From a virus: a stretch of DNA of 41,178 nt. The DNA lies in the IMG/VR virus record IMGVR_UViG_3300047557_000756, positions 1 to 41,178 of that record; one strand, given 5' to 3'. Of this stretch, positions 2,732-10,449 are shown piece after piece. The notes under the pieces were generated by a model, which was not told the origin of the DNA, did no database searches, and saw only the letters and a list, made by a program, of their open reading frames with translations. How positions within the stretch are numbered: the stretch's first letter is position 1; the number at the start of each line of letters is the position of its first letter. The position numbers and the translations under genes were made by a program.

Positions 2732-2773
2732 CGCCCCGAAGGGGCGCACTCCGCGCTCATTGTGAAAGGATAA
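2732..2773 (+). promoter_or_regulatory. Leader hairpin and GAAAGGATAA ribosome site, unit 1
   Basis: CGCCCC-GAA-GGGGCG (2732-2746) forms a tight 6-bp hairpin. The extended ribosome site GAAAGGATAA (2764-2773) precedes ATG 2776. This is the first of four leaders sharing that 10-base element. Confidence 0.55.
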
Positions 2774-2775
2774 AG

Positions 2776-2940
2776 ATGAGAGCCACAAAGAAAGAGCTTC
2801 TAAAGCTAGATGAAATGCTTCATCAAGCCTACGCGACAATAGCTTGTGGAATTGACCCAATAGAGAATAAAGAAGTAATCGCCAGACTAGGCGATAACCT
2901 CAGAGCTATCAAAGAATTTATCAAGGGAGAGAAGCGATAA
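2776..2940 (+). CDS. Small hypothetical early protein (54 aa)
   Basis: Starts at ATG 2776 after the leader element GAAAGGATAA. The 54-residue product (MRATKKELLK...) is charged and predicted helical, with one Cys and no recognised domain. Its stop TAA overlaps the next start (TAATG), the hallmark of translational coupling seen throughout this early block. It opens the plus-strand cluster; function is unknown. Confidence 0.65.
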   Translation: MRATKKELLKLDEMLHQAYATIACGIDPIENKEVIARLGDNLRAIKEFIKGEKR

Positions 2941-3107
2941 TGAATACCGACAAGCTGGAAAGAATAGCTAGACAGCAGGCGAAAGCTCTCAAAGCCACCC
3001 TTGAGCTATTCTCAGAGGTGACCTACCTTGACTCAGACGGGCGCGAGCTTCTCAATGAGCTTCATCGCTGGCTTGAACATACGAAGCCACTCAGAAAATC
3101 GGCTTAG
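2940..3107 (+). CDS. Small hypothetical early protein (55 aa)
   Basis: ATG at 2940 overlaps the previous stop. The 55-residue product (MNTDKLERIARQQ...) is two amphipathic helices with conserved-looking Leu/Trp positions; no domain is recognised. It is followed by two hairpins that separate it from the next unit. Confidence 0.65.
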   Translation: MNTDKLERIARQQAKALKATLELFSEVTYLDSDGRELLNELHRWLEHTKPLRKSA

Positions 3108-3118
3108 AGCTTGCCTAT

Positions 3119-3178
3119 CGCCCACCTTCACGGGTGGGCGGTGGGGAAGGGCTAAACCTTCCACTTACGAAAGGATAA
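3119..3178 (+). promoter_or_regulatory. Double hairpin leader with GAAAGGATAA, unit 2
   Basis: CGCCCACC/GGTGGGCG (3119-3140, 6-base loop) is followed by GGAAGG/CCTTCC (3145-3162, 6-base loop), then CTTAC and GAAAGGATAA (3169-3178) before ATG 3183. The CCTT of hairpin 2 could alternatively pair with AAGG of the ribosome site, so the leader could switch between open and closed forms (inference). Confidence 0.55.
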
Positions 3179-3182
3179 ACAG

Positions 3183-3428
3183 ATGAATTGGAAACTAGAT
3201 CCTAATGACCCTTATGTATGGCAGGTAGAGGGCGCACCTTTCGGTGTGGATAACATAGACCTTGACGCATACGCCCCTTTTCGGCTATGGAATAACCGCC
3301 GTGTGTATGTCGGCAAATACACCGACAAGGGCAGGAAAGACCTCACCTTTAGATCGCGCCGTGAGGCTATGGATTATGTTGAGGAAGCTGTAAGGGAATA
3401 CCAAAGCCAAATAATTACCGCCCTCTGA
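3183..3428 (+). CDS. Hypothetical early protein (81 aa)
   Basis: ATG 3183 lies after GAAAGGATAA at good spacing. The product (MNWKLDPNDPYVWQ...) is soluble and mixed alpha/beta, with an aromatic-rich middle (YAPFRLWNNRRVYVGKYT) and a helical C-terminal third. No domain is recognised. It is the only gene in its leader unit. Confidence 0.7.
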   Translation: MNWKLDPNDPYVWQVEGAPFGVDNIDLDAYAPFRLWNNRRVYVGKYTDKGRKDLTFRSRREAMDYVEEAVREYQSQIITAL

Positions 3429-3439
3429 TGCTTGCCTCT

Positions 3440-3510
3440 CCTTCAGAGTTAGTCTAACCTCTGAGGGTGGGGGAAGGTATCAGACCTTCACAACAACTAC
3501 GAAAGGATAA
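3440..3510 (+). promoter_or_regulatory. Double hairpin leader with GAAAGGATAA, unit 3
   Basis: CCTTCAGAG/CTCTGAGGG (3440-3467, one T-G wobble, 10-base loop), then GAAGGT/ACCTTC (3473-3489, 5-base loop), then CAACTAC and GAAAGGATAA (3501-3510). The order and spacing repeat unit 2 although the stem sequences differ, which implies conserved structure. Confidence 0.55.
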
Positions 3511-3514
3511 GAAA

Positions 3515-3931
3515 GTGAGAAAGAGAAACACAGAAACGCGGTTCGCTTGTTCCTGTAATGGGTGTCGGAACTATCCGACAATGCCAGCGCAGGTATGGCA
3601 CGAGGCGCAGATACCTAGCAAGGAACAGGGAACTTATTTTTTCCGCAAAGACACGATGAAATTCTTTTCATCTCGTATCGTGGATTTCAAGCCCGTCAGT
3701 AGAGGGGGAGAGATAGATAGCCTTTCGGTTATTGTTTCAAGCCGTCACGGATACGAGGGTGCGAGCCGTTATTACGAGATAGTAGTGCTATGCCCTTACG
3801 GAACTATTCACAGAGAGGGCGAGAGTTTTGAGAACCTACGCAAGGCGCGGAGAGAGTGGGATAACGCTCTCGCAAGTTTCGCCCCTTGCTCTTGTCACGG
3901 GTGCCAACTAGACAGAGAGGTGAGTGAGTAA
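3515..3931 (+). CDS. Cys-rich putative zinc protein (138 aa)
   Basis: GTG at 3515 is chosen because GAAAGGATAA ends 4 bases before it. The ATG at 3467 lies inside the hairpin leader and has no ribosome site. Two CxCxxC clusters sit at the ends: ACSCNGC near the N-terminus and PCSCHGC near the C-terminus. They could bind one or two zinc ions. The middle looks like a beta-rich domain. The family is not recognised. The stop overlaps the next start (TAATG). Confidence 0.7.
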   Translation: MRKRNTETRFACSCNGCRNYPTMPAQVWHEAQIPSKEQGTYFFRKDTMKFFSSRIVDFKPVSRGGEIDSLSVIVSSRHGYEGASRYYEIVVLCPYGTIHREGESFENLRKARREWDNALASFAPCSCHGCQLDREVSE

Positions 3932-4041
3932 TGTTTGAGGTATCTACGAGCTGGATCAACGGACTAGGACAGGTCATAACCTACGCCCTGATAATCGGCG
4001 CGGTGTTGTGGCTCTTGAGTAAGTGGGAGGTGGGCGAGTAA
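3931..4041 (+). CDS. Single-pass membrane miniprotein (36 aa)
   Basis: ATG 3931 overlaps the previous stop. The product has one hydrophobic segment (about residues 13-29, VITYALIIGAVLWLL) and a short charged tail. It may act at the host membrane; too short to classify. Confidence 0.55.
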   Translation: MFEVSTSWINGLGQVITYALIIGAVLWLLSKWEVGE

Positions 4042-4194
4042 GTGGATAAGTGTCGTTTTTGTGGGTTGCGTGGGCTGGTGTTATCCACCGCCAATACTGA
4101 CTATTCCTGCGAACATTGTGGAGAGTGGCAGGAGGCTATTCTCGGAAGTGCGTGGGAAATCGTAGGCTACGAAAAGGAGGAGGTAAGTAAATGA
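4042..4194 (+). CDS. Zinc-ribbon miniprotein (50 aa)
   Basis: GTG 4042 directly follows the previous TAA. CRFCG (residues 4-8) and CEHCG (23-27) give the two CxxC knuckles of a zinc ribbon. The rest is an acidic helix. The stop overlaps the next gene (AAATGA). Likely a nucleic-acid or protein adaptor; target unknown. Confidence 0.6.
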   Translation: MDKCRFCGLRGLVLSTANTDYSCEHCGEWQEAILGSAWEIVGYEKEEVSK

Positions 4195-4328
4195 GTGGGG
4201 ACACTTGTAAAAAATGCGGTGTAGAAATGTGGAGGGAGGGGCGGATAGATGACGACATCAAGCTCTGCCACTCTTGCTATCTAGAAATAGCAGAAAAGGG
4301 TGGGAACCCTGATGAGGAGGGCGAGTAA
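4191..4328 (+). CDS. Zinc-ribbon miniprotein (45 aa)
   Basis: ATG 4191 overlaps the previous stop by four bases. CKKCG (6-10) and CHSCY (26-30) form two CxxC knuckles; the C-terminus is acidic. A second zinc-ribbon protein in direct series with the gene before it. Confidence 0.6.
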   Translation: MSGDTCKKCGVEMWREGRIDDDIKLCHSCYLEIAEKGGNPDEEGE

Positions 4329-4558
4329 TGGAAATCAAGTTACTAGACCACACCAATACAGGGTGGGCAAGAACGATACTAATTACCTACGAAGGAGAGA
4401 AATACCAGCTCACCCTTACTTGGGAGAATTGGGAAGGCTACGAAATAACAAGTGGCTATGACGATCTGCCCGAAAGTTTCAAAGAGAAATACACCGAAGG
4501 GCTAGACCTATACCGATTACTAGACGATAGAACGAGTGAGGAGTTATCTAATGCGTGA
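4328..4558 (+). CDS. Hypothetical early protein (76 aa)
   Basis: ATG 4328 overlaps the preceding TAA. The product (MEIKLLDHTNTGWARTILITYEGEKYQL...) looks like a small beta-rich domain followed by a helix. Its opening resembles that of the 136-residue protein at 4705 (KYKLPKGVELEILD..., Y.D.EYSIT), hinting at a loose paralogy. No function is recognised. Confidence 0.68.
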   Translation: MEIKLLDHTNTGWARTILITYEGEKYQLTLTWENWEGYEITSGYDDLPESFKEKYTEGLDLYRLLDDRTSEELSNA

Positions 4559-4712
4559 GTATGGAATACGAAAGACGGAAACCTACTATGTCCGAGCCAA
4601 TTCTGAGGAGGAGGCTAGGGCGTTAGTAGATCAAATGGACAACTCCTATGCGTGGAGTGTCAATGTGGAAGCTATTTGGGCAGGAGCAGAGGAGGAGAAC
4701 GCCAATGTCTAA
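4551..4712 (+). CDS. Hypothetical early protein (53 aa)
   Basis: ATG 4551 overlaps the previous gene by 8 bases. The product (MREYGIRKTETYYVRANSEEEAR...) has a beta strand followed by an EEEAR helix and a second strand, the pattern of small phage proteins of unknown role. It ends inside the start region of the next gene. Confidence 0.6.
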   Translation: MREYGIRKTETYYVRANSEEEARALVDQMDNSYAWSVNVEAIWAGAEEENANV

Positions 4713-5115
4713 GATGAAATATAAATTACCAAAGGGCGTAGAGCTGGAGATACTAGACGATGACGCTCACCGAAAAGACCGCCAAGATAGTGCTTTTTAT
4801 ACTTGGTATGACAGTAACAATGTCGCCTACCTTACTTATGAGGACAGGGAATACAGTATTACCTGCGTAGGTGAGATGCGTATTCACTACAAAAACCAAG
4901 TGATTAGATACTGTGACGACTTGGTAAATGCTGGCATAAAGAACGACAAAGACCTAGCCAAGATAGACAAAGCTGGGGGAGAGTGGATCAACAACTCTTG
5001 GTTTGAAGTCTATGATGAAATAAATAACGCCTACACAGGCGAGGTCTATCACACAGTTCAAGACGCTATTGAAAGCGTGGCTAATTGGATAGTGAAAGAG
5101 GAAGTCAATGCCTAA
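4705..5115 (+). CDS. Hypothetical early protein (136 aa)
   Basis: ATG 4705 is preferred because GGAGGAG lies 8-9 bases upstream; the more upstream ATG at 4648 lies inside the preceding gene without a ribosome site. The product is acidic, aromatic-rich and mixed alpha/beta (MSKMKYKLPKGVELEILDDD...). No domain is recognised. Confidence 0.68.
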   Translation: MSKMKYKLPKGVELEILDDDAHRKDRQDSAFYTWYDSNNVAYLTYEDREYSITCVGEMRIHYKNQVIRYCDDLVNAGIKNDKDLAKIDKAGGEWINNSWFEVYDEINNAYTGEVYHTVQDAIESVANWIVKEEVNA

Positions 5116-5356
5116 TTTACAGACCGCACAATTTTGGACAAAGGTAGAGGGCGAGAAAGAGAAAGTGCGAACCTTTGCCCTCATACCTAATGGGTGGGAG
5201 GATAAGTTAGACCAACACCCACAAGACGAACAGATTTTCTATTGGCTAGATGAACAAGAGTGGCTATCTCTTGGTGCTGGCGAGGTCTATGGTGACGCAG
5301 AAGTGCTGGCGTGTGCCTGTGATGAGTGCGAGTTTGAAAGGGAGGGAGAGCGATGA
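5108..5356 (+). CDS. Hypothetical early protein (82 aa)
   Basis: ATG 5108 overlaps the previous stop by 8 bases. The acidic product ends in CACDECEFEREGER, a CxCxxC cluster similar to those in the 138-residue protein at 3515. Aromatic residues are frequent. Function is unknown. Confidence 0.66.
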   Translation: MPNLQTAQFWTKVEGEKEKVRTFALIPNGWEDKLDQHPQDEQIFYWLDEQEWLSLGAGEVYGDAEVLACACDECEFEREGER

Positions 5357-5448
5357 ACTACATCAAGAACGAGAAGGGAAGGTTGGTCTGTTGTTCTTGC
5401 GAACGCGACATAATGGAACATCACAAGAGGCGGTGTCCATATGCCTAA
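5353..5448 (+). CDS. C2HC zinc-finger miniprotein (31 aa)
   Basis: ATG 5353 overlaps the previous TGA. CCSCERDIMEHHKRRCPYA shows C-x2-C, H and C ligands spaced like a short C2HC finger. Basic. At only 31 residues, the case rests on the motif and tight coupling. Confidence 0.55.
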   Translation: MNYIKNEKGRLVCCSCERDIMEHHKRRCPYA

Positions 5449-5587
5449 ATGCGGTGTATGTGGGTGGTCTTTCTCAGATAGAACGCTGATGAAACACGCT
5501 GAAACCCCGTGTGGGGAGGAGAGCGAGAAGGCAGGTAAATACCTACCTGAAGTAGATGATCTAATCAAGGAGATAGAGGAGGAGTAG
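5441..5587 (+). CDS. C2HC zinc-finger miniprotein (48 aa)
   Basis: ATG 5441 overlaps the preceding stop by 8 bases. CGVCGWSFSDRTLMKHAETPC gives C4, C7, H19 and C24, a classical single C2HC finger, followed by an acidic helix (LIKEIEEE). It may bind nucleic acid or a host protein. Confidence 0.6.
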   Translation: MPKCGVCGWSFSDRTLMKHAETPCGEESEKAGKYLPEVDDLIKEIEEE

Positions 5588-5591
5588 GGCG

Positions 5592-5696
5592 ATGAATAGC
5601 AACTGCGTAAGAGGACATCACAACCAATGCGAGGACAGTATCAAGGACACTTACCTTTGTTCCTGCCCTTGCCACCTACAAGGAGGAAGCAAGTGA
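5592..5696 (+). CDS. Cys/His-rich miniprotein (34 aa)
   Basis: ATG 5592 follows the previous stop by 4 bases. The product has CVRGHHNQC and CSCPCHLQ, five Cys and three His in 34 residues, a compact metal site. The downstream GTG start overlaps its stop (GTGA). Confidence 0.55.
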   Translation: MNSNCVRGHHNQCEDSIKDTYLCSCPCHLQGGSK

Positions 5697-6010
5697 ATAA
5701 AGAATACAGAGAATACCCTGACGGAGGGGTTTATTGGGCAAGGATAAAGCTAGAACAACAGGAGGAGGGCGTGTTATTCACCTCGCCTGTTGATAACGCA
5801 ACGCACCTAGTCAAGGGCGCAACGCTGGAAGTAATCAAAGGTCAATGGTGGAATAGCGATTTCCATAGTGACATACTAGACGCTATCTCAGAAATGGGAG
5901 GGTGTCGTTGGGTGCTTGGCTATACAACCGACTACGAATACTACGAAGGAGAAGGCGAGCATTACCTAGAAGTAATGGAAAATGGCAGACAAATGGAGGA
6001 AGCGGAATGA
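5693..6010 (+). CDS. Hypothetical early protein (105 aa)
   Basis: GTG 5693 is chosen because AGGAGG lies 8 bases upstream and it overlaps the previous stop. An ATG at 5627 lies inside that gene without a ribosome site. The product (MNKEYREYPDGGVYWARIKLEQ...) has an acidic C-terminus with a tyrosine-rich run (DYEYYEGEGEHY). No domain is recognised. Confidence 0.65.
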   Translation: MNKEYREYPDGGVYWARIKLEQQEEGVLFTSPVDNATHLVKGATLEVIKGQWWNSDFHSDILDAISEMGGCRWVLGYTTDYEYYEGEGEHYLEVMENGRQMEEAE

Positions 6011-6174
6011 ACAAGGAATACTATCAAGCAAAGGCAGACCTATGTCGTGACCTTGCTATCAAGCAAATGGTGGAGGGCAACGCGAAGGAGGCAGGGGCTA
6101 ACCTGATCCGTATGGTCAATAGCCTAAATCAAATTGAACTTATCAAGCATAAGGAGGAGAAGGCAAGTGAATAG
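6007..6174 (+). CDS. Small helical early protein (55 aa)
   Basis: ATG 6007 overlaps the preceding TGA (ATGA). The product is a helical hairpin with one Cys and regular hydrophobic positions (YYQAKADLCRDLAIKQMVEG). The longer frame from 5902 runs through the previous gene and is unlikely. Confidence 0.62.
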   Translation: MNKEYYQAKADLCRDLAIKQMVEGNAKEAGANLIRMVNSLNQIELIKHKEEKASE

Positions 6175-6346
6175 AGAAATGTATCTGCTAATAGCAGACA
6201 CGATTACCGCAGTAAAGAACGAGTTTGAAGCACCCACTATTGACAATGTGGTAGAGGCGTTAGCAGATGCCTTTGAGGGATACGACCCTCACTTTGACAG
6301 GGTTATCTTCCTCAATGACTGTGAGTTAGCGGAGGCGAGCGTATGA
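6167..6346 (+). CDS. Hypothetical early protein (59 aa)
   Basis: GTG 6167 overlaps the preceding stop, with AAGGAGGAG about 7 bases upstream. The product (NREMYLLIADTITAVKNEFEAP...) is acidic and helical, with a GYDPHFDRVIF segment. Unknown. Confidence 0.62.
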   Translation: MNREMYLLIADTITAVKNEFEAPTIDNVVEALADAFEGYDPHFDRVIFLNDCELAEASV

Positions 6347-6606
6347 AACTCATCAACTTTTATGAGGTAATGGATCGCAAGGGCGACATAGCGTGGGGAG
6401 GGGCAAGCGCAAGAGAAGCGGTAGCGTGGTTCAGGCGAGGCTTCAACAACTCTATCTTTGTATCGGTCTGGAACGAGGAAGATACTGAGGAACCCGTCTT
6501 AGTCACCGACAAGATAGATGTAACTAATCTCCTGCTTGCCTTGCTATTGAGCGAGAGAGAAGAACTCTACCCACCCAAGCCAAAGAAAGAGTGGGTATGG
6601 AAATGA
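6343..6606 (+). CDS. Hypothetical early protein (87 aa)
   Basis: ATG 6343 overlaps the preceding TGA. The segment FYEVMDRKGDIAWGGASAREAVAWFRRG looks like a beta-hairpin followed by a helix; a conserved-looking Trp-rich middle and a Pro/Lys tail follow. No domain is recognised. Confidence 0.67.
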   Translation: MKLINFYEVMDRKGDIAWGGASAREAVAWFRRGFNNSIFVSVWNEEDTEEPVLVTDKIDVTNLLLALLLSEREELYPPKPKKEWVWK

Positions 6607-6686
6607 TATTCTTAGGCGTGATAGTGGCAACCATAATTGCCTACCTGCTCATAGTATGGGAGGATAAGCTCAATGAACCTAGATAG
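6603..6686 (+). CDS. Single-pass membrane miniprotein (27 aa)
   Basis: ATG 6603 overlaps the previous stop. The product is nearly all one membrane segment (residues 2-19), ending in WEDKLNEPR. It overlaps the next start by 14 bases. Confidence 0.45.
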   Translation: MIFLGVIVATIIAYLLIVWEDKLNEPR

Positions 6687-6972
6687 ACGAAAGGCTAGTG
6701 CTGAGAAGCGAGCTGTATGGCTACGCAACTACCAGCGAGCAAGAGGGCGTGCGCTTACGCGCCTAGCCCAGAAGTATCCCGACCAATTCAAGGAAATCTT
6801 GGAAGAAGAAAGGCTATCTGATGAGGCTAATGGCAAAGCGTGGAGTGATATTAGTGGCAGGACTATCAGCGTTGTGGGTAGTTCTCGCGCACCCCGTAGG
6901 AAACGTAAAGTTCCCTTCAGACATACCCACCGAAGTCGTAAGGGCAAAAGCAAGTTGGGAAGAAAAAAATGA
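6673..6972 (+). CDS. Basic hypothetical protein (99 aa)
   Basis: ATG 6673. The first 55 residues contain an Arg-rich helix pair (RAVWLRNYQRARGRALTRLA, then KYPDQFKEILEEE), a small domain resembling ones in other actinophages. The last 40 residues are Arg/Lys-rich and lie in DNA that also encodes the signal peptide of the transglycosylase in another frame, so this is a 143-base overprint. A DNA-binding role is a guess. Confidence 0.65.
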   Translation: MNLDRRKASAEKRAVWLRNYQRARGRALTRLAQKYPDQFKEILEEERLSDEANGKAWSDISGRTISVVGSSRAPRRKRKVPFRHTHRSRKGKSKLGRKK

Positions 6973-7243
6973 GAACAGAGAATTGGCAAAGCAATATGCG
7001 TGGGTTGCGTTTGGTTGGAGAGGCAGAGAATGGCTCTGCCTCCACGATCTTTGGACCCGTGAGAGCAGGTTTGACCACTACGCACAGAACCCAACAAGTT
7101 CAGCTTTCGGAATTGCTCAACTGCTTGGAGAGAGAAGTAGAAAGCCTTCACTCCAAATACTGCGAGGCTTACGTTACATTGACGAGCGTTATGGATCACC
7201 TTGTAAAGCTCTCAGCTATCATAATAAACGAAACCATTATTGA
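6830..7243 (+). CDS. Secreted lytic transglycosylase-like protein (137 aa)
   Basis: Cleaves peptidoglycan glycan strands. ATG 6830 gives a signal peptide or anchor (MAKRGVILVAGLSALWVVLA) and is preceded by GAGG. The C-terminal domain carries WLCLHDLWTRESRFDHYAQN, the SLT-type motif with catalytic Glu78 in RES, then SSAFGIAQLLG and LRYIDERYGSPCKAL, as in actinobacterial and actinophage SLT domains. It lies in the early cluster, far from the endolysin and holins. It may act on the wall during entry or assembly, or be a second lysin. It overlaps the preceding basic gene extensively in a different frame. Confidence 0.8.
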   Translation: MAKRGVILVAGLSALWVVLAHPVGNVKFPSDIPTEVVRAKASWEEKNENRELAKQYAWVAFGWRGREWLCLHDLWTRESRFDHYAQNPTSSAFGIAQLLGERSRKPSLQILRGLRYIDERYGSPCKALSYHNKRNHY

Positions 7244-7269
7244 CAAAGAAAAAGATACTAAGTAGAGTA

Positions 7270-7308
7270 TTACTACTAAGCGTTCCTTATCCTTTCGCTC
7301 AGTAGTAA
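7270..7308 (+). ncRNA. 3'-UTR hairpin with anti-Shine-Dalgarno loop (candidate sRNA)
   Basis: TTACTACT (7270-7277) pairs with AGTAGTAA (7301-7308); after one A-C mismatch AGCG (7279-7282) pairs with CGCT (7296-7299). The 13-base loop TTCCTTATCCTTT includes TTATCCTTT; with C7296 it is the exact complement of GAAAGGATAA, the ribosome element of four early genes. A strong terminator starts two bases later, as in 3'-UTR-derived small RNAs. Confidence 0.5.
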
Positions 7309-7310
7309 GT

Positions 7311-7353
7311 AACCCCGCAGATCAAGAGTGCTAACTGCGGGGTTATTTTATTT
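7311..7353 (+). terminator. Strong intrinsic terminator of the early operon
   Basis: AACCCCGCAG (7311-7320), a 14-base loop, CTGCGGGGTT (7335-7344), then ATTTTATTT. A perfect 10-bp stem plus U-rich tail. Confidence 0.9.
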
Positions 7354-7414
7354 CAAATAGTTAGTGATTTACTTTGTCAAGTCAGGTTGTTTTTCGGGAG
7401 TGTCGCCGTTTAGA

Positions 7415-7446
7415 GTAAGTCAAAAATCGGTAAGTCAAAAAGTCGG
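7415..7446 (+). repeat. Tandem direct repeat TAAGTCAAAAA-TCGG
   Basis: TAAGTCAAAAATCGG (7416-7430) is followed at once by TAAGTCAAAAAGTCGG (7431-7446). It lies between the early terminator and the Cys-rich gene at 7497, just upstream of a TAAAAT hexamer (7452-7457) that could be a -10 box without a -35 box, so the repeats may be activator sites (inference). Confidence 0.5.
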
Positions 7447-7467
7447 TTGAATAAAATAGTTTCCGAG

Positions 7468-7494
7468 CCACAAAGTTTGTGGTTGAAAGGATAA
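7468..7494 (+). promoter_or_regulatory. Leader hairpin and GAAAGGATAA, unit 4
   Basis: CCACA-AAGTT-TGTGG (7468-7482) sits two bases before GAAAGGATAA (7485-7494), which precedes ATG 7497. Same hairpin-then-ribosome-site order as the other three leaders. Confidence 0.5.
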
Positions 7495-7496
7495 CT

Positions 7497-7619
7497 ATGG
7501 AGTGCTGTAATCATAAATGGAATAAGAGATACTGTTTCTGTCACCGTTGCTATGGGTATGACCCAGAGTTTGCGGGATATGAATGTGATATTGAGAAAGA
7601 AAGGCTAGAAAAAGCCTAA
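7497..7619 (+). CDS. Cys-rich miniprotein (40 aa)
   Basis: ATG 7497 follows GAAAGGATAA by two bases. MECCNHKWNKRYCFCHRC contains six Cys and two His in the first 18 residues, an obvious metal site, followed by an acidic tail with one more Cys. It is separated from the main early operon by a terminator and has its own leader. Function is unknown. Confidence 0.55.
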   Translation: MECCNHKWNKRYCFCHRCYGYDPEFAGYECDIEKERLEKA

Positions 7620-7630
7620 CCCTTGTCGGT

Positions 7631-7718
7631 TGAATAGAAGCCTGATCCCCTGAAGGCTATCGGAGGAGAGGACCAGACTCTATTCATCATTTCGCCACAC
7701 GAGCAGAAGGGGTTGCTC
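7631..7718 (+). ncRNA. Structured RNA candidate with complementary hairpin loops
   Basis: TGAATAGA (7631-7638) pairs perfectly with TCTATTCA (7679-7686), enclosing the hairpin AGCCT/AGGCT (7639-7658) with loop GATCCCCTGA and a purine-rich strand GGAGGAGAGG. A second hairpin, GAGCA/TGCTC (7701-7718), has loop GAAGGGGT. CCCCT in loop 1 and AGGGG in loop 2 are exact complements, so the loops could kiss. No gene is visible from 7620 to 7785. Confidence 0.4.
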
Positions 7719-7785
7719 GCTTCAGCGTGGATAGACCTATCAACTTCGGAGGTTAGCTGACAGGTCGGACACTTGTATTGATATA

Positions 7786-8418
7786 TCACTGATAAGGACT
7801 TTCGCCACCAAGATTATTCTGTAATCTGCGTAGAGAGTTCTGACATCTACGATCGGCAGTAGAGGTAGCGCACTCTAGATAGGTAGCTAACTCTTGGAGA
7901 GTAAGGTTCTCGTGATATCTCTTGATGAGAATATCTTTGTCCATCACATCTAGTTTGAGGTAAGCCTTCTTGATGTCAATGAGCGTGGCGAGCAGGTTGC
8001 CACCTTCAGCAGGAGCAGACTGCTTCTTTGGTTGCCCATCGTTGATGAGGTTCTGAGCCTGTTCTAATACTGTGTTATCTACAACGGAGGCGATAACGTG
8101 GGGGAGAAGCTGGGCTATGACGACAGTATCGTAGAAGGCTTCATCGGTAAGTTTATATCCGCTACGAGTAGCCTTCTCCCTGCGAGCGTAGCGTTCTGCG
8201 TGACGCTTCATCTGCCACGCCATACGCTTCTCGTTGATGACTCGCTGAACTGTGTTCTCTTCCGATAGTAATTGGTTGAAGTGTTCTGCTCGTGAGTAGT
8301 ACCACGACCAGCACTCTTGAACTACATCTTCTCGCTCAACAAAGTTGCGGTATCTACTGAAGATAGTTCTAGCTACGCTAAAGACTATATCGCCAGCAGA
8401 GGGGTGAGTCTCAGTCAT
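7786..8418 (-). CDS. Sigma-70-like / helix-turn-helix regulator (210 aa)
   Basis: ATG 8418 is chosen because GAGGT lies 5 bases upstream and the start overlaps the preceding stop. The N-terminal third contains EREDVVQECWSWYY, resembling region 2 of ECF-type sigma factors. The C-terminal part (LDVMDKDILIKRYHENLTLQELATYL then STADRRCQNSLRRL) matches a region 4 helix-turn-helix. It probably directs host polymerase to phage promoters or binds DNA alone. It is the last gene of the minus-strand replication operon. Confidence 0.75.
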   Translation of the reverse strand: MTETHPSAGDIVFSVARTIFSRYRNFVEREDVVQECWSWYYSRAEHFNQLLSEENTVQRVINEKRMAWQMKRHAERYARREKATRSGYKLTDEAFYDTVVIAQLLPHVIASVVDNTVLEQAQNLINDGQPKKQSAPAEGGNLLATLIDIKKAYLKLDVMDKDILIKRYHENLTLQELATYLECATSTADRRCQNSLRRLQNNLGGESPYQ

Positions 8419-8566
8419 TCTTACCTCTGACAATTTGAGCAGCAAGATAGAAAGTTTTAGCACGAACTGCTGTATCGTTGAAGTTGTACTCGTCACTTAT
8501 CATTGCATTAGTAGCCTGTTGTTCTAGTTCTAGGGCTATCTGCTCTCTGATTTCTTGTTCAGTCAT
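8411..8566 (-). CDS. Small hypothetical protein (51 aa)
   Basis: ATG 8566 lies in the last bases of the DUF1599 gene (ATGACTGA overlap), and its own stop overlaps the sigma-like start with the same ATGACTGA sequence. The acidic helical product (MTEQEIREQIALELEQQ...) ends QIVRGKND. The first seven bases of coding are shared by both genes (ATGACTGA), an interesting junction repeat. Confidence 0.65.
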   Translation of the reverse strand: MTEQEIREQIALELEQQATNAMISDEYNFNDTAVRAKTFYLAAQIVRGKND

Positions 8567-8975
8567 TGGGTAGTTCAGGCCACTTCTTATCTAATACCAT
8601 AATTGCAATAGCGGAATAGTTGAGCAGGTCTATGAAGGAGTCTCGGAGTGACTCGTTAGAGGGAGCGACCTTGCTATCAAGGAGGTTATTGATTCGAGCC
8701 ACCTTGTCCCACATTCGCACGCGGAGTCCGTTGAGTGGGCCACCTGGACTGTGAGCGATGTTCTTTGGGCCGTAATCTTTATGCTTGCGTAGAAGCAGAT
8801 TTCCTGCTGTGTCGAGGATTCTCCAGACATCTTTTACAAACTCCTCGTCTACTCTCTTGTTGGTATCAGGCGACAAGTTATCGTCCCAGCTTTGTAATCT
8901 ATCGAGACTATTATCATCCCCATATCCATCAATAATCTGGCTGCCTCTTGGAGATCCTTTTTCTTGCTCACTCAC
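8559..8975 (-). CDS. DUF1599 / nucleotide modification associated domain protein (138 aa)
   Basis: GTG 8975 with GGAGGAG 5 bases upstream. The segments LLRKHKDYGPKNIAHSPGGP, LRVRMWDKVARINNLL and ESLRDSFIDLLNYSAIAIMVL match the DUF1599 family (nucleotide modification associated domain 1), an all-helical, MazG-like fold common in phages and linked to nucleotide metabolism. The N-terminal 35 residues are a low-complexity acidic extension. Its start overlaps the primase stop (GTGA). Confidence 0.8.
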   Translation of the reverse strand: MSEQEKGSPRGSQIIDGYGDDNSLDRLQSWDDNLSPDTNKRVDEEFVKDVWRILDTAGNLLLRKHKDYGPKNIAHSPGGPLNGLRVRMWDKVARINNLLDSKVAPSNESLRDSFIDLLNYSAIAIMVLDKKWPELPND

Positions 8976-9631
8976 TTTACTCCTCCTACTAGGTTGGCTG
9001 TTGCTTCTTTTCCATTCACCAGATAGAAGTCTGTTATGTCCATACCTGGTGGTAATTGTACGATTTGTGAGTTGGCAACCTCACCTGCGACACGCCTAGA
9101 AAACTCTGCTCCAGGATTTGTGCCATCATCTTTCACATCATTGTCTCCGAGAATATACACAACATCAAAGCCACCGAATAGTTTGGGATAGAAAGGTTTC
9201 CACGCCGCTACTCCAGGTACTCCAACTGCTGGCACACCTACAACTGCATCCATAATAATCGCATCGAACTCACCTTCACAGATGACGATGCTCTTGGTTG
9301 CAGACATTGTAGCTACAACATTGAACAGGTGAGTCTTCTGTCCTACAGGTGAGCCATACTTTGGCTTGCCATCATCAAGCCTGCGGAACTTGAAGCCTAC
9401 ACATAAATCTAAAGCGGTGAAGTAGGGTATGGAAATCCAACCCTCATATCCTTGATGCCCTTCTATCGGATCTGTGATAGTTCCTAGTCGGTAGCGAGCT
9501 GCTACCTCTTCAGATATTCCACGTCCTGCGAGATAGGCTAGAGCCTCGTCGCTTATTGCCTCCGCGTAATGGTGAGCCGCCTCCTGTAACGATTTCGCCT
9601 GCTCTTGCGAGAGCATCTTTGAACCCCACAT
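8972..9631 (-). CDS. DnaG-like primase, TOPRIM catalytic part (219 aa)
   Basis: Carries the primase core without the zinc domain. LQEAAHHYAEAISDEALAYL and AGRGISEEVAARYRLG match the N-terminal catalytic subdomain of DnaG. IVICEGEFDAIIM holds the TOPRIM Glu and YILGDNDVKDD the DxD metal site. The zinc domain lies in the overlapping frame at 9510-9887. ATG 9631 or 9616 are possible internal starts, with only weak ribosome sites, so either coupled reinitiation or a +1 frameshift may join the halves. Confidence 0.85.
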   Translation of the reverse strand: MWGSKMLSQEQAKSLQEAAHHYAEAISDEALAYLAGRGISEEVAARYRLGTITDPIEGHQGYEGWISIPYFTALDLCVGFKFRRLDDGKPKYGSPVGQKTHLFNVVATMSATKSIVICEGEFDAIIMDAVVGVPAVGVPGVAAWKPFYPKLFGGFDVVYILGDNDVKDDGTNPGAEFSRRVAGEVANSQIVQLPPGMDITDFYLVNGKEATANLVGGVK

Positions 9632-9887
9632 TCTCTAATTCCATAATGACATTGACTGCATTGCCACCCTTGCCACAGGTGTGACAGTAATACAAATTGT
9701 TGTATGTATCTATGACTGCACTCTTGCGAGAGTCATCGTGCATACAGCAACGCACTGAGACGTTGCGTCCCTCTTTCACTTCTCCTCCGAAGTGTCTTAC
9801 TACCTCTGCTATGGAGACTGAGTTTGCATCTGAGTTGGTCTTTGACCTCTTCGCACGAACCACCCTGGACCAGTCTTGTGCTGGCAT
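9510..9887 (-). CDS. DnaG-like primase, CHC2 zinc-finger part (125 aa)
   Basis: Start ATG 9887 with AAGGAG 8 bases upstream. C47, H50, C68 and C71 in RCCMHDD and YYCHTCGKGGNAVNV form the CHC2 zinc ribbon that reads template DNA. The family-like part ends at about FKDALARAGEI; the remaining tail (GGGSPLRGGNKRRGSSLSRR) reads through the DNA used by the TOPRIM frame and looks non-conserved. The overlap with the TOPRIM gene is 122 bases. Confidence 0.82.
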   Translation of the reverse strand: MPAQDWSRVVRAKRSKTNSDANSVSIAEVVRHFGGEVKEGRNVSVRCCMHDDSRKSAVIDTYNNLYYCHTCGKGGNAVNVIMELENVGFKDALARAGEIVTGGGSPLRGGNKRRGSSLSRRTWNI

Positions 9888-9985
9888 CCGCAGTCTCCTT
9901 CACACTTCTCGTGAAACTCTTTGGCTAGGTCAGTCTTACCAATGGTATTGTGATGACCTGCCCAACAACAGCTACTGCAGATCAT
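9809..9985 (-). CDS. Cys/His-rich zinc miniprotein (58 aa)
   Basis: ATG 9985 overlaps the stop of the nuclease gene (ATGA) and its 3' part overlaps the primase zinc gene by 79 bases in another frame. ICSSCCWAGHH and CEGDCGCQHK give at least six Cys and several His. The first two thirds look like a conserved actinophage small protein; the tail after KTGPGWFVRRG is probably unconstrained. Confidence 0.6.
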   Translation of the reverse strand: MICSSCCWAGHHNTIGKTDLAKEFHEKCEGDCGCQHKTGPGWFVRRGQRPTQMQTQSP

Positions 9986-10449
9986 TCTGCTTTCTTCTTT
10001 CTAGTCTTTGGTTTTTCTTCTGCTACTACTTCTTCTTTTGGTTCTTCTACTACCTCTGGTGTATTCCAGAGTTCACTACTTGTTATCTGTCCTTGTGGTA
10101 CTGGCATTTGTTCTATCCATTTCTCTAATGTTTGCACTACCCACGCATCTTCGATGCTACCTCTGCGACGTTTGACTATGACGAAGGCTGGTGGGGTGAC
10201 GGGTAGTCCACGAGCCTTCGCATAGTTGGCTGCCTCAGTCTGAGCTTCTGCCCAGAACTGCGGAAGATTGATTGACTTACGGTTCTTACACTCCAGAATA
10301 TAGGTCTGACCTGCGATTATGGTAACGATGTCACCTTCATCATTCGATCCCGCCTTGGCTAGGCGCTCAGCAAAGTGTCCAAGTTTCCTCAAGTATTTCA
10401 TTACATCCGTCTCAAACTTGGAACCCTTAGCCTTATTGTATGAACTCAC
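9982..10449 (-). CDS. Holliday-junction-resolvase-like PD-(D/E)XK nuclease (155 aa)
   Basis: Cuts branched DNA during replication and packaging. E13 in KGSKFETDV, D40 in NDEGDIVTI and the E53-C-K55 motif in YILECKNRK give the catalytic set of the Hjc/RecB-like fold, followed by a helix with QFWAEAQTEAANYA. The last 35 residues are a Glu/Lys-rich low-complexity tail. ATG 10449 overlaps the helicase stop (ATGA). Confidence 0.82.
   Translation of the reverse strand: MSSYNKAKGSKFETDVMKYLRKLGHFAERLAKAGSNDEGDIVTIIAGQTYILECKNRKSINLPQFWAEAQTEAANYAKARGLPVTPPAFVIVKRRRGSIEDAWVVQTLEKWIEQMPVPQGQITSSELWNTPEVVEEPKEEVVAEEKPKTRKKKAE

Follow-up and report, generated by a model that had tools for sequence, protein, structure and literature searches.

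Why should a phage close a block of short genes with a hairpin whose loop is the complement of ribosome sites in its own genome? The window, by which we mean the whole 41,178-base stretch analysed from virus record IMGVR_UViG_3300047557_000756 (IMG/VR), contains GAAAGGATAA four times on the plus strand (2764-2773, 3169-3178, 3501-3510, and 7485-7494), each copy 2-4 nt upstream of the start codon of a short plus-strand gene, and its reverse complement once, at 7287-7296. These five occurrences in 41 kb compare with 0.06 expected from dinucleotide shuffles (maximum of 1 in 100 shuffles). The reading that we favor, with a probability of about 0.75, is that the phage encodes a multi-target antisense RNA that would occlude ribosome sites in the early genes of that same phage, thus acting in early-gene shut-off.

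Organization of the locus

The window is organized with genes for terminase, portal, helicase, primase, exonuclease, and tail proteins, together with a sigma-like factor (7786-8496), on the minus strand, and with a block of short genes on the plus strand, from 2776 to 7265, which we term early, judging solely by gene content and layout. The last gene of this block codes for a transglycosylase-like protein (6821-7243) and is followed by the hairpin and an intrinsic terminator (Table 1). Facing the block convergently is a small minus-strand gene for an FmdB-like zinc-ribbon protein (7616-7789), which serves as the anchor for finding the equivalent junction in relatives. The top TerL matches among annotated phages are the Planktophila phages LanE43-AprE7 and LanE43-AprF5 (PMC10202952), at 46% identity, and theirs are the only annotated-phage records that also have the FmdB-like anchor gene. 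Because these best TerL and anchor-gene relatives are Planktophila phages, the probable host is a freshwater member of the actinobacterial order Nanopelagicales. No relative turned up when bacterial genomes were searched with TerL, and no integrase or repressor is seen among the phage proteins scanned. The element was not found in the cultured Planktophila phages OX376640 and OX376641 by junction and simple hairpin scans, the latter of which miss bulged stems such as that of the window's hairpin.

Table 1. Features of the window, and loop words of related phages (L numbers) with their complements in the same phages' early leaders
Feature	Positions	Strand	Sequence	Remarks
Predicted sigma-70-type promoter	7240-7268	+	TTGACA-N17-TAGAGT	Start expected near 7275, at the 5' foot of the hairpin
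Hairpin presenting the putative antisense loop	7271-7307	+		RNA fold; stem covariation
Loop, 13 nt	7283-7295	+	UUCCUUAUCCUUU	Core invariant in class; co-varies with own leaders between classes
Pairing word	7286-7297	+	CTTATCCTTTCG	Predicted to pair with leaders
Intrinsic terminator	7308-7347	+		RNA fold; 3' end of the predicted ~73-nt RNA (about 7275-7347)
Predicted target 1	2764-2773	+	GAAAGGATAA	10-nt exact complement; before ATG 2776 (gene 2776-2940, 54 aa); duplex -14.2 kcal/mol
Predicted target 2	3168-3178	+	CGAAAGGATAA	11-nt exact complement; before ATG 3183 (gene 3183-3428, 81 aa); duplex -14.6 kcal/mol
Predicted target 3	3500-3511	+	CGAAAGGATAAG	12-nt exact complement; before GTG 3515 (gene 3515-3931, 138 aa); duplex -17.7 kcal/mol
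Predicted target 4	7485-7494	+	GAAAGGATAA	10-nt exact complement; before ATG 7497 (gene 7497-7619, 40 aa), past the terminator; duplex -15.0 kcal/mol
L163 loop/leader			TTCCTTATCCTTTC / GAAAGGATAAGGAA	14 nt
L044 loop/leader			TTTATCCTTTCA / TGAAAGGATAAA	
L072 loop/leader			CTAACCCTTTC / GAAAGGGTTAG	
L077 loop/leader			TACCCTTTC / GAAAGGGTA	
L080 loop/leader			CACCCTTCC / GGAAGGGTG	Three leaders; 8 nt at a fourth
L054 loop/leader			TTACCCCTT / AAGGGGTAA	Two leaders
L051 loop/leader			ACCTTTCCG / CGGAAAGGT	
L052 loop/leader			TCCCTTCAA / TTGAAGGGA	
L019 loop/leader			TCTCTCTTTCA / TGAAAGAGAGA	Plus further leaders
L006 loop/leader			CCTTTCGTCG / CGACGAAAGG	Two leaders; 9 nt at a third
Loop/leader, another class			CTCTCTTTCA / TGAAAGAGAG	

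The first-pass annotation had placed the hairpin at 7270-7308, with a 10-base complement at four early leaders that extends to 12 bases at the 3501 site; the fold gives a hairpin of 7271-7307 with its loop at 7283-7295, and all of the leader coordinates are reproduced. The strong terminator stem described there is also present, but the two-base gap before it is not, as in the predicted fold the stem begins directly at 7308, abutting the hairpin. The 101-nt stretch of hairpin and terminator has a minimum free energy of -34.6 kcal/mol versus -18.5 (sd 3.0) for shuffles (z -5.3). Duplex energies had been proposed as a check on the loop, and the predicted loop:leader duplexes (-14.2 to -17.7 kcal/mol, mean -15.4) are far stronger than those of shuffled loops (-7.8, sd 1.5); the 16S anti-Shine-Dalgarno (anti-SD) is predicted to bind the same four leaders more weakly (-9.4 to -10.3 kcal/mol). 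The similarity of the loop to the 16S anti-SD, also pointed out earlier, is genuine but is not a separate fact, because it follows from pairing with an SD. The motif is confined to the plus-strand block, with 0 of 40 inspected minus-strand genes using it. No antirepressor is recognized among the four predicted target genes, three of which have no family match while the fourth matches an unknown family.

Several other features lie close to these elements. Between the terminator and the FmdB-like gene is an inserted stretch (window 7380-7619) with a small gene whose leader has the targeted word, and comparable stretches with a targeted small gene are present in L014, L159, L134, L270, and L269, as though a newly gained gene had joined the same control. 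G-rich stem-loops often precede targeted leaders (window 3117-3165 and 3440-3490, a layout shared by many relatives), an example being ggggaggttctagacctagaacccc immediately upstream of the SD, and some targeted leaders have TATCCTT upstream, which might base-pair in cis with the SD. The terminator loop, (A/G)NCAAGAGTGC(T/A)AA at window 7321-7334, is conserved also in L003, L010, L011, L019, L044, L048, L051, L052, and L191, and in several phages it is kept despite a replaced stem (CCCGCAG..CTGCGGG versus CCGCCGG..CCGGCGG). It includes GAGTGCTAA, half a CIRCE element, and a CIRCE reading was dropped, there being 0 full canonical CIRCE elements in 29 small actinobacterial genomes.

Hairpins and leaders in related phages

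TerL and loop-word searches of IMG/VR yielded at least several hundred loci, and the convergent junction is present in 120 loci among the matches listed, with 85 distinct tails. An exact 15-mer loop scan of viral contigs gave many matches outside the lineage that are without hairpin and leaders and are apparent coincidences, and its matches were retained only if the stem is present. From these surveys the element appears to be common in this phage lineage, at a fraction not set exactly. Relatives sharing the window's loop word have TTATCCTTTC once each, in the hairpin closing the block. Among 17 distinct hairpins of the window's class the loop core is invariant and the stem variable, with 11 of 12 stem pairs altered on both sides, and the stem covariation score, 0.567, exceeds those of shuffles (0.173) and of slid partners (0.248 at most). 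Because the stem changes with compensation while the loop core stays invariant, selection, on this comparative evidence, maintains the hairpin as an RNA structure and constrains its loop.

Elsewhere in the lineage the equivalent hairpin carries a different word, the complement of which is found in the same phage's early leaders, for at least 10 loop classes (Table 1). These exact loop/leader matches are 10-14 nt long and often involve several leaders per phage. There are two builds: a separate hairpin followed by the terminator (the window, L072, L019, L051, and L052) and a word carried in the terminator's own loop (L163, L054, L077, and L080). Orthologous genes illustrate the changes, with the gene 3515 leader being GAAAGGATAAG in class A versus AGGAAGGG in class D (L260, 53% identity), the gene 3183 leader GAAAGGATAA in the window versus GGAAAGG in class H (L051, 67%), and the gene 2776 leader GAAAGGATAA in the window versus GAAGGGAA in L010 (72%), whose loop ACCCCTTC has merely a 6-base core in common with that leader. 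Some orthologs (genes 3515 and 3183) bear a leader fitting their own phage's loop, but there are counter-examples, the word being lost before the gene 3183 ortholog in class A phage L120 and lacking before gene 3515 in class C phage L328. Gene 6673, with a leader (AGGATAAG) that overlaps the preceding reading frame, was considered as a fifth target and rejected; this leader is much alike in every class whatever the loop, without co-variation, and it makes an informative negative case. No own leader match of at least 8 nt with the loop tested is found in L055, L063, L065, L082, or L010 (classes K, L, M, N, and Q). In L079 one loop fails and the terminator loop ACCCTTTC matches three leaders, and among initially unclassified phages, L208, L280, and L068 have a similar hairpin behind an inserted stretch, and L287 and L233 have a further loop variant.

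The fit between loops and leaders was evaluated by swapping loops among phages, a design that corrects for the general fit of pyrimidine loops to purine-rich SDs. In the first test a single phage stood for each of 17 loop classes, the non-matching classes included and some loop words trimmed by hand. The longest complements of loops to own leaders add up to 148 versus 116.6 (sd 4.9) when swapped, and 29 leaders have an 8-base complement versus 6.5 (sd 3.3) when swapped. Because of the hand trimming, the test was repeated in 74 phages with hairpins chosen automatically by structure and position and left untrimmed, giving 0.80 own matches per phage versus 0.27 when swapped. Loops that relatives have in common push the swapped values up, so the comparison is conservative on that side. 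The observed values are reached by 0 of 100,000 permutations on either measure of the first test and by 0 of 20,000 in the second, probabilities that are nominal and not literal since the phages share ancestry. Selection for pairing between loop and leader is thus supported at the level of sequence comparison, because the loop and the phage's own leaders co-vary. Two outcomes had been named beforehand as counting against the proposal, and the relatives show neither: complementarity to their own leaders is retained with both partners changed, and shuffled loops do not match as often, with 2.6 (sd 1.9) leader matches versus 29.

Two additional features were noted in these comparisons. Class D phages L243, L249, L254, and L255 have a second hairpin-like stretch, gtgcATCCTCCTTTCGGgcac, just upstream of the terminator hairpin, which holds a word near the 16S anti-SD beside the class word ACCCTTCC. 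The palindrome GTTTAAAC is present in 23 copies in 13.5 kb of L006 (early region, reverse-complement coordinates 3951-10435) versus 0.24 expected from shuffles, and in 18 copies in L005, with no more than 3 in any other locus compared.

Proposed mechanism and alternative explanations

In the proposed mechanism, a short RNA (~73 nt, roughly 7275-7347) would start at a promoter of its own, be released by cleavage from the 3' end of the transcript of the early operon, or both, and its hairpin would display a pyrimidine loop for pairing, over 10-12 bases, with extended Shine-Dalgarno segments in several early genes of the same phage. A block to ribosome binding is expected because the pairing would cover the SD itself, as in established SD-occluding RNAs, so those genes would be repressed, and build-up of the RNA during infection would provide a built-in early-gene shut-off. 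We infer that the RNA is a separate molecule that acts in trans by translational repression and has early shut-off as its purpose; with no integrase or repressor seen, turning down early genes as the RNA accumulates would be the simplest role. The earlier suggestion that the phage silences its own early genes stands insofar as co-variation and shuffles point to an antisense hairpin aimed at its own early ribosome sites; the timing attached to it, once the transcript is complete, is speculative.

The promoter of the window has a higher score than any of 200 shuffled versions of itself (p 0.005), and comparable promoters are in the same place in L077, L079, L052, L004, L218, and L019. The promoter score is below 0.05 versus shuffles in 15 of 60 tails (3 expected), such that about a quarter are statistically clear, and class D has no clear promoter at this place. 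An independent RNA of ~73 nt may therefore be made from its own promoter, and possible origins are this promoter, processing of the early transcript, or both. Description of the RNA as 3'-UTR-derived, as originally put forward, names just one of these possible origins, since the promoter offers an independent start. Because target 4 lies beyond the terminator, its position favors action in trans. This bears on an explanation confined to cis, in which the hairpin, being part of the early mRNA's 3' end, would bind leaders within its own transcript, altering translation or stability with no free RNA. The hairpin does end the same strand as targets 1-3, and pairing in cis would yield identical compensatory changes, but with target 4 past the terminator, an own-promoter signal at the hairpin foot, and a pairing span of 3.8-4.5 kb, we regard this as quite improbable.

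The same pairing could have superinfection immunity as its main purpose, with a resident RNA silencing an incoming phage that has the same leader word, and the words forming specificity groups. Many distinct matched words are found among related freshwater phages, and c4 RNA confers P1/P7 heteroimmunity through ribosome-site pairing (PMC12197685); however, without an integrase or repressor among the proteins scanned there is no lysogen to protect, and self-shut-off does not require a second phage, leaving immunity unlikely as the main purpose. Host mRNAs are very improbable targets, whether of an anti-SD-like decoy or of a host shut-off RNA, with the likeness to phage leaders arising incidentally because SD sequences are common: every loop has an anti-SD-like core and class D phages also bear the loop AUCCUCCUUUCGG, near the 16S tail, but the loops co-vary with the phage's own leaders, and few of 297 sampled actinobacterial genomes have the extended word ahead of an ATG: it occurs in 20, nearly always as a single copy, and 0-2 times in genomes of 1-1.5 Mb (among which we assume the Nanopelagicales to be). 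A host origin of the motif was rejected, with few such sites in actinobacterial genomes, and the bare leader pattern gives scattered, chance-like genome matches over unrelated phyla. Least probable of all is coincidence, in which case the hairpin would be an unremarkable one next to a terminator and its pyrimidine loop would happen to look like the complement of a purine-rich SD. Pyrimidine loops pair easily with SD words, and five classes are without an own match of at least 8 nt, but the swap and shuffle tests, the exact matches of 10-14 nt, often at several leaders per phage, and the invariant loop core on a changing stem all argue against it. An antisense RNA directed at the phage's own early genes is the reading we retain.

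Known RNAs and biological significance

Rfam 15 has no family at gathering score anywhere in the window. The 6C RNA of Actinobacteria also has exposed C-rich loops, but it is a host gene, with C-runs in two of its loops, and its Rfam model has no match in the window. The c4 antisense RNA of phages P1 and P7 blocks translation of a phage mRNA by base-pairing around its ribosome site through loop-exposed segments (PMC12197685). The likeness is that of a phage antisense RNA on a ribosome site, with related phages having different matched specificities (PMC12197685), although c4 acts on one mRNA (ant) in temperate phages, whereas here a single loop, at the 3' limit of the early block, is predicted to face up to four leaders. 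Hairpin 13 of Staphylococcus aureus RNAIII, like its other C-rich loops, base-pairs with SDs on several mRNAs and thereby keeps ribosomes from binding (PMC2837412); RNAIII too has a hairpin loop facing the SDs of multiple mRNAs, but it is a long host regulator, and here the predicted RNA is a phage RNA on the phage's own genes, co-evolving with their leaders. Cluster A mycobacteriophages L5, D29, and StarStuff make abundant, stable small non-coding RNAs in lytic infection, according to the part of the report cited here (PMC5712189). These are, like the RNA predicted here, small non-coding RNAs of actinobacterial phages, but in that same part they come from the early Pleft promoter and a region of about 500 bp, are of unknown function, and have no antisense pairing reported (PMC5712189).

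Antisense RNAs of phages are a known kind, and so are SD-occluding loops. New, to judge from the open literature searched, is a predicted small RNA of an actinophage lineage with one loop directed at multiple early genes of the same phage, co-evolving with them in many matched words. It is conceivable, though doubtful, that this is a lineage-wide antisense RNA family whose private words are orthogonal specificity groups, serving both early shut-off and self/non-self recognition among co-infecting phages. The prediction is precise, with one RNA of roughly 73 nt and four named targets, and the large natural set of matched and mismatched loop-leader pairs makes the evolution of antisense specificity directly testable. 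If the proposal is true, a single-loop short RNA controls several early genes of its own phage via the Shine-Dalgarno word that they have in common, a compact substitute for protein repressors. The phages concerned probably have as hosts some of the most abundant bacteria in fresh water, and the words could forecast cross-regulation among co-occurring phages.
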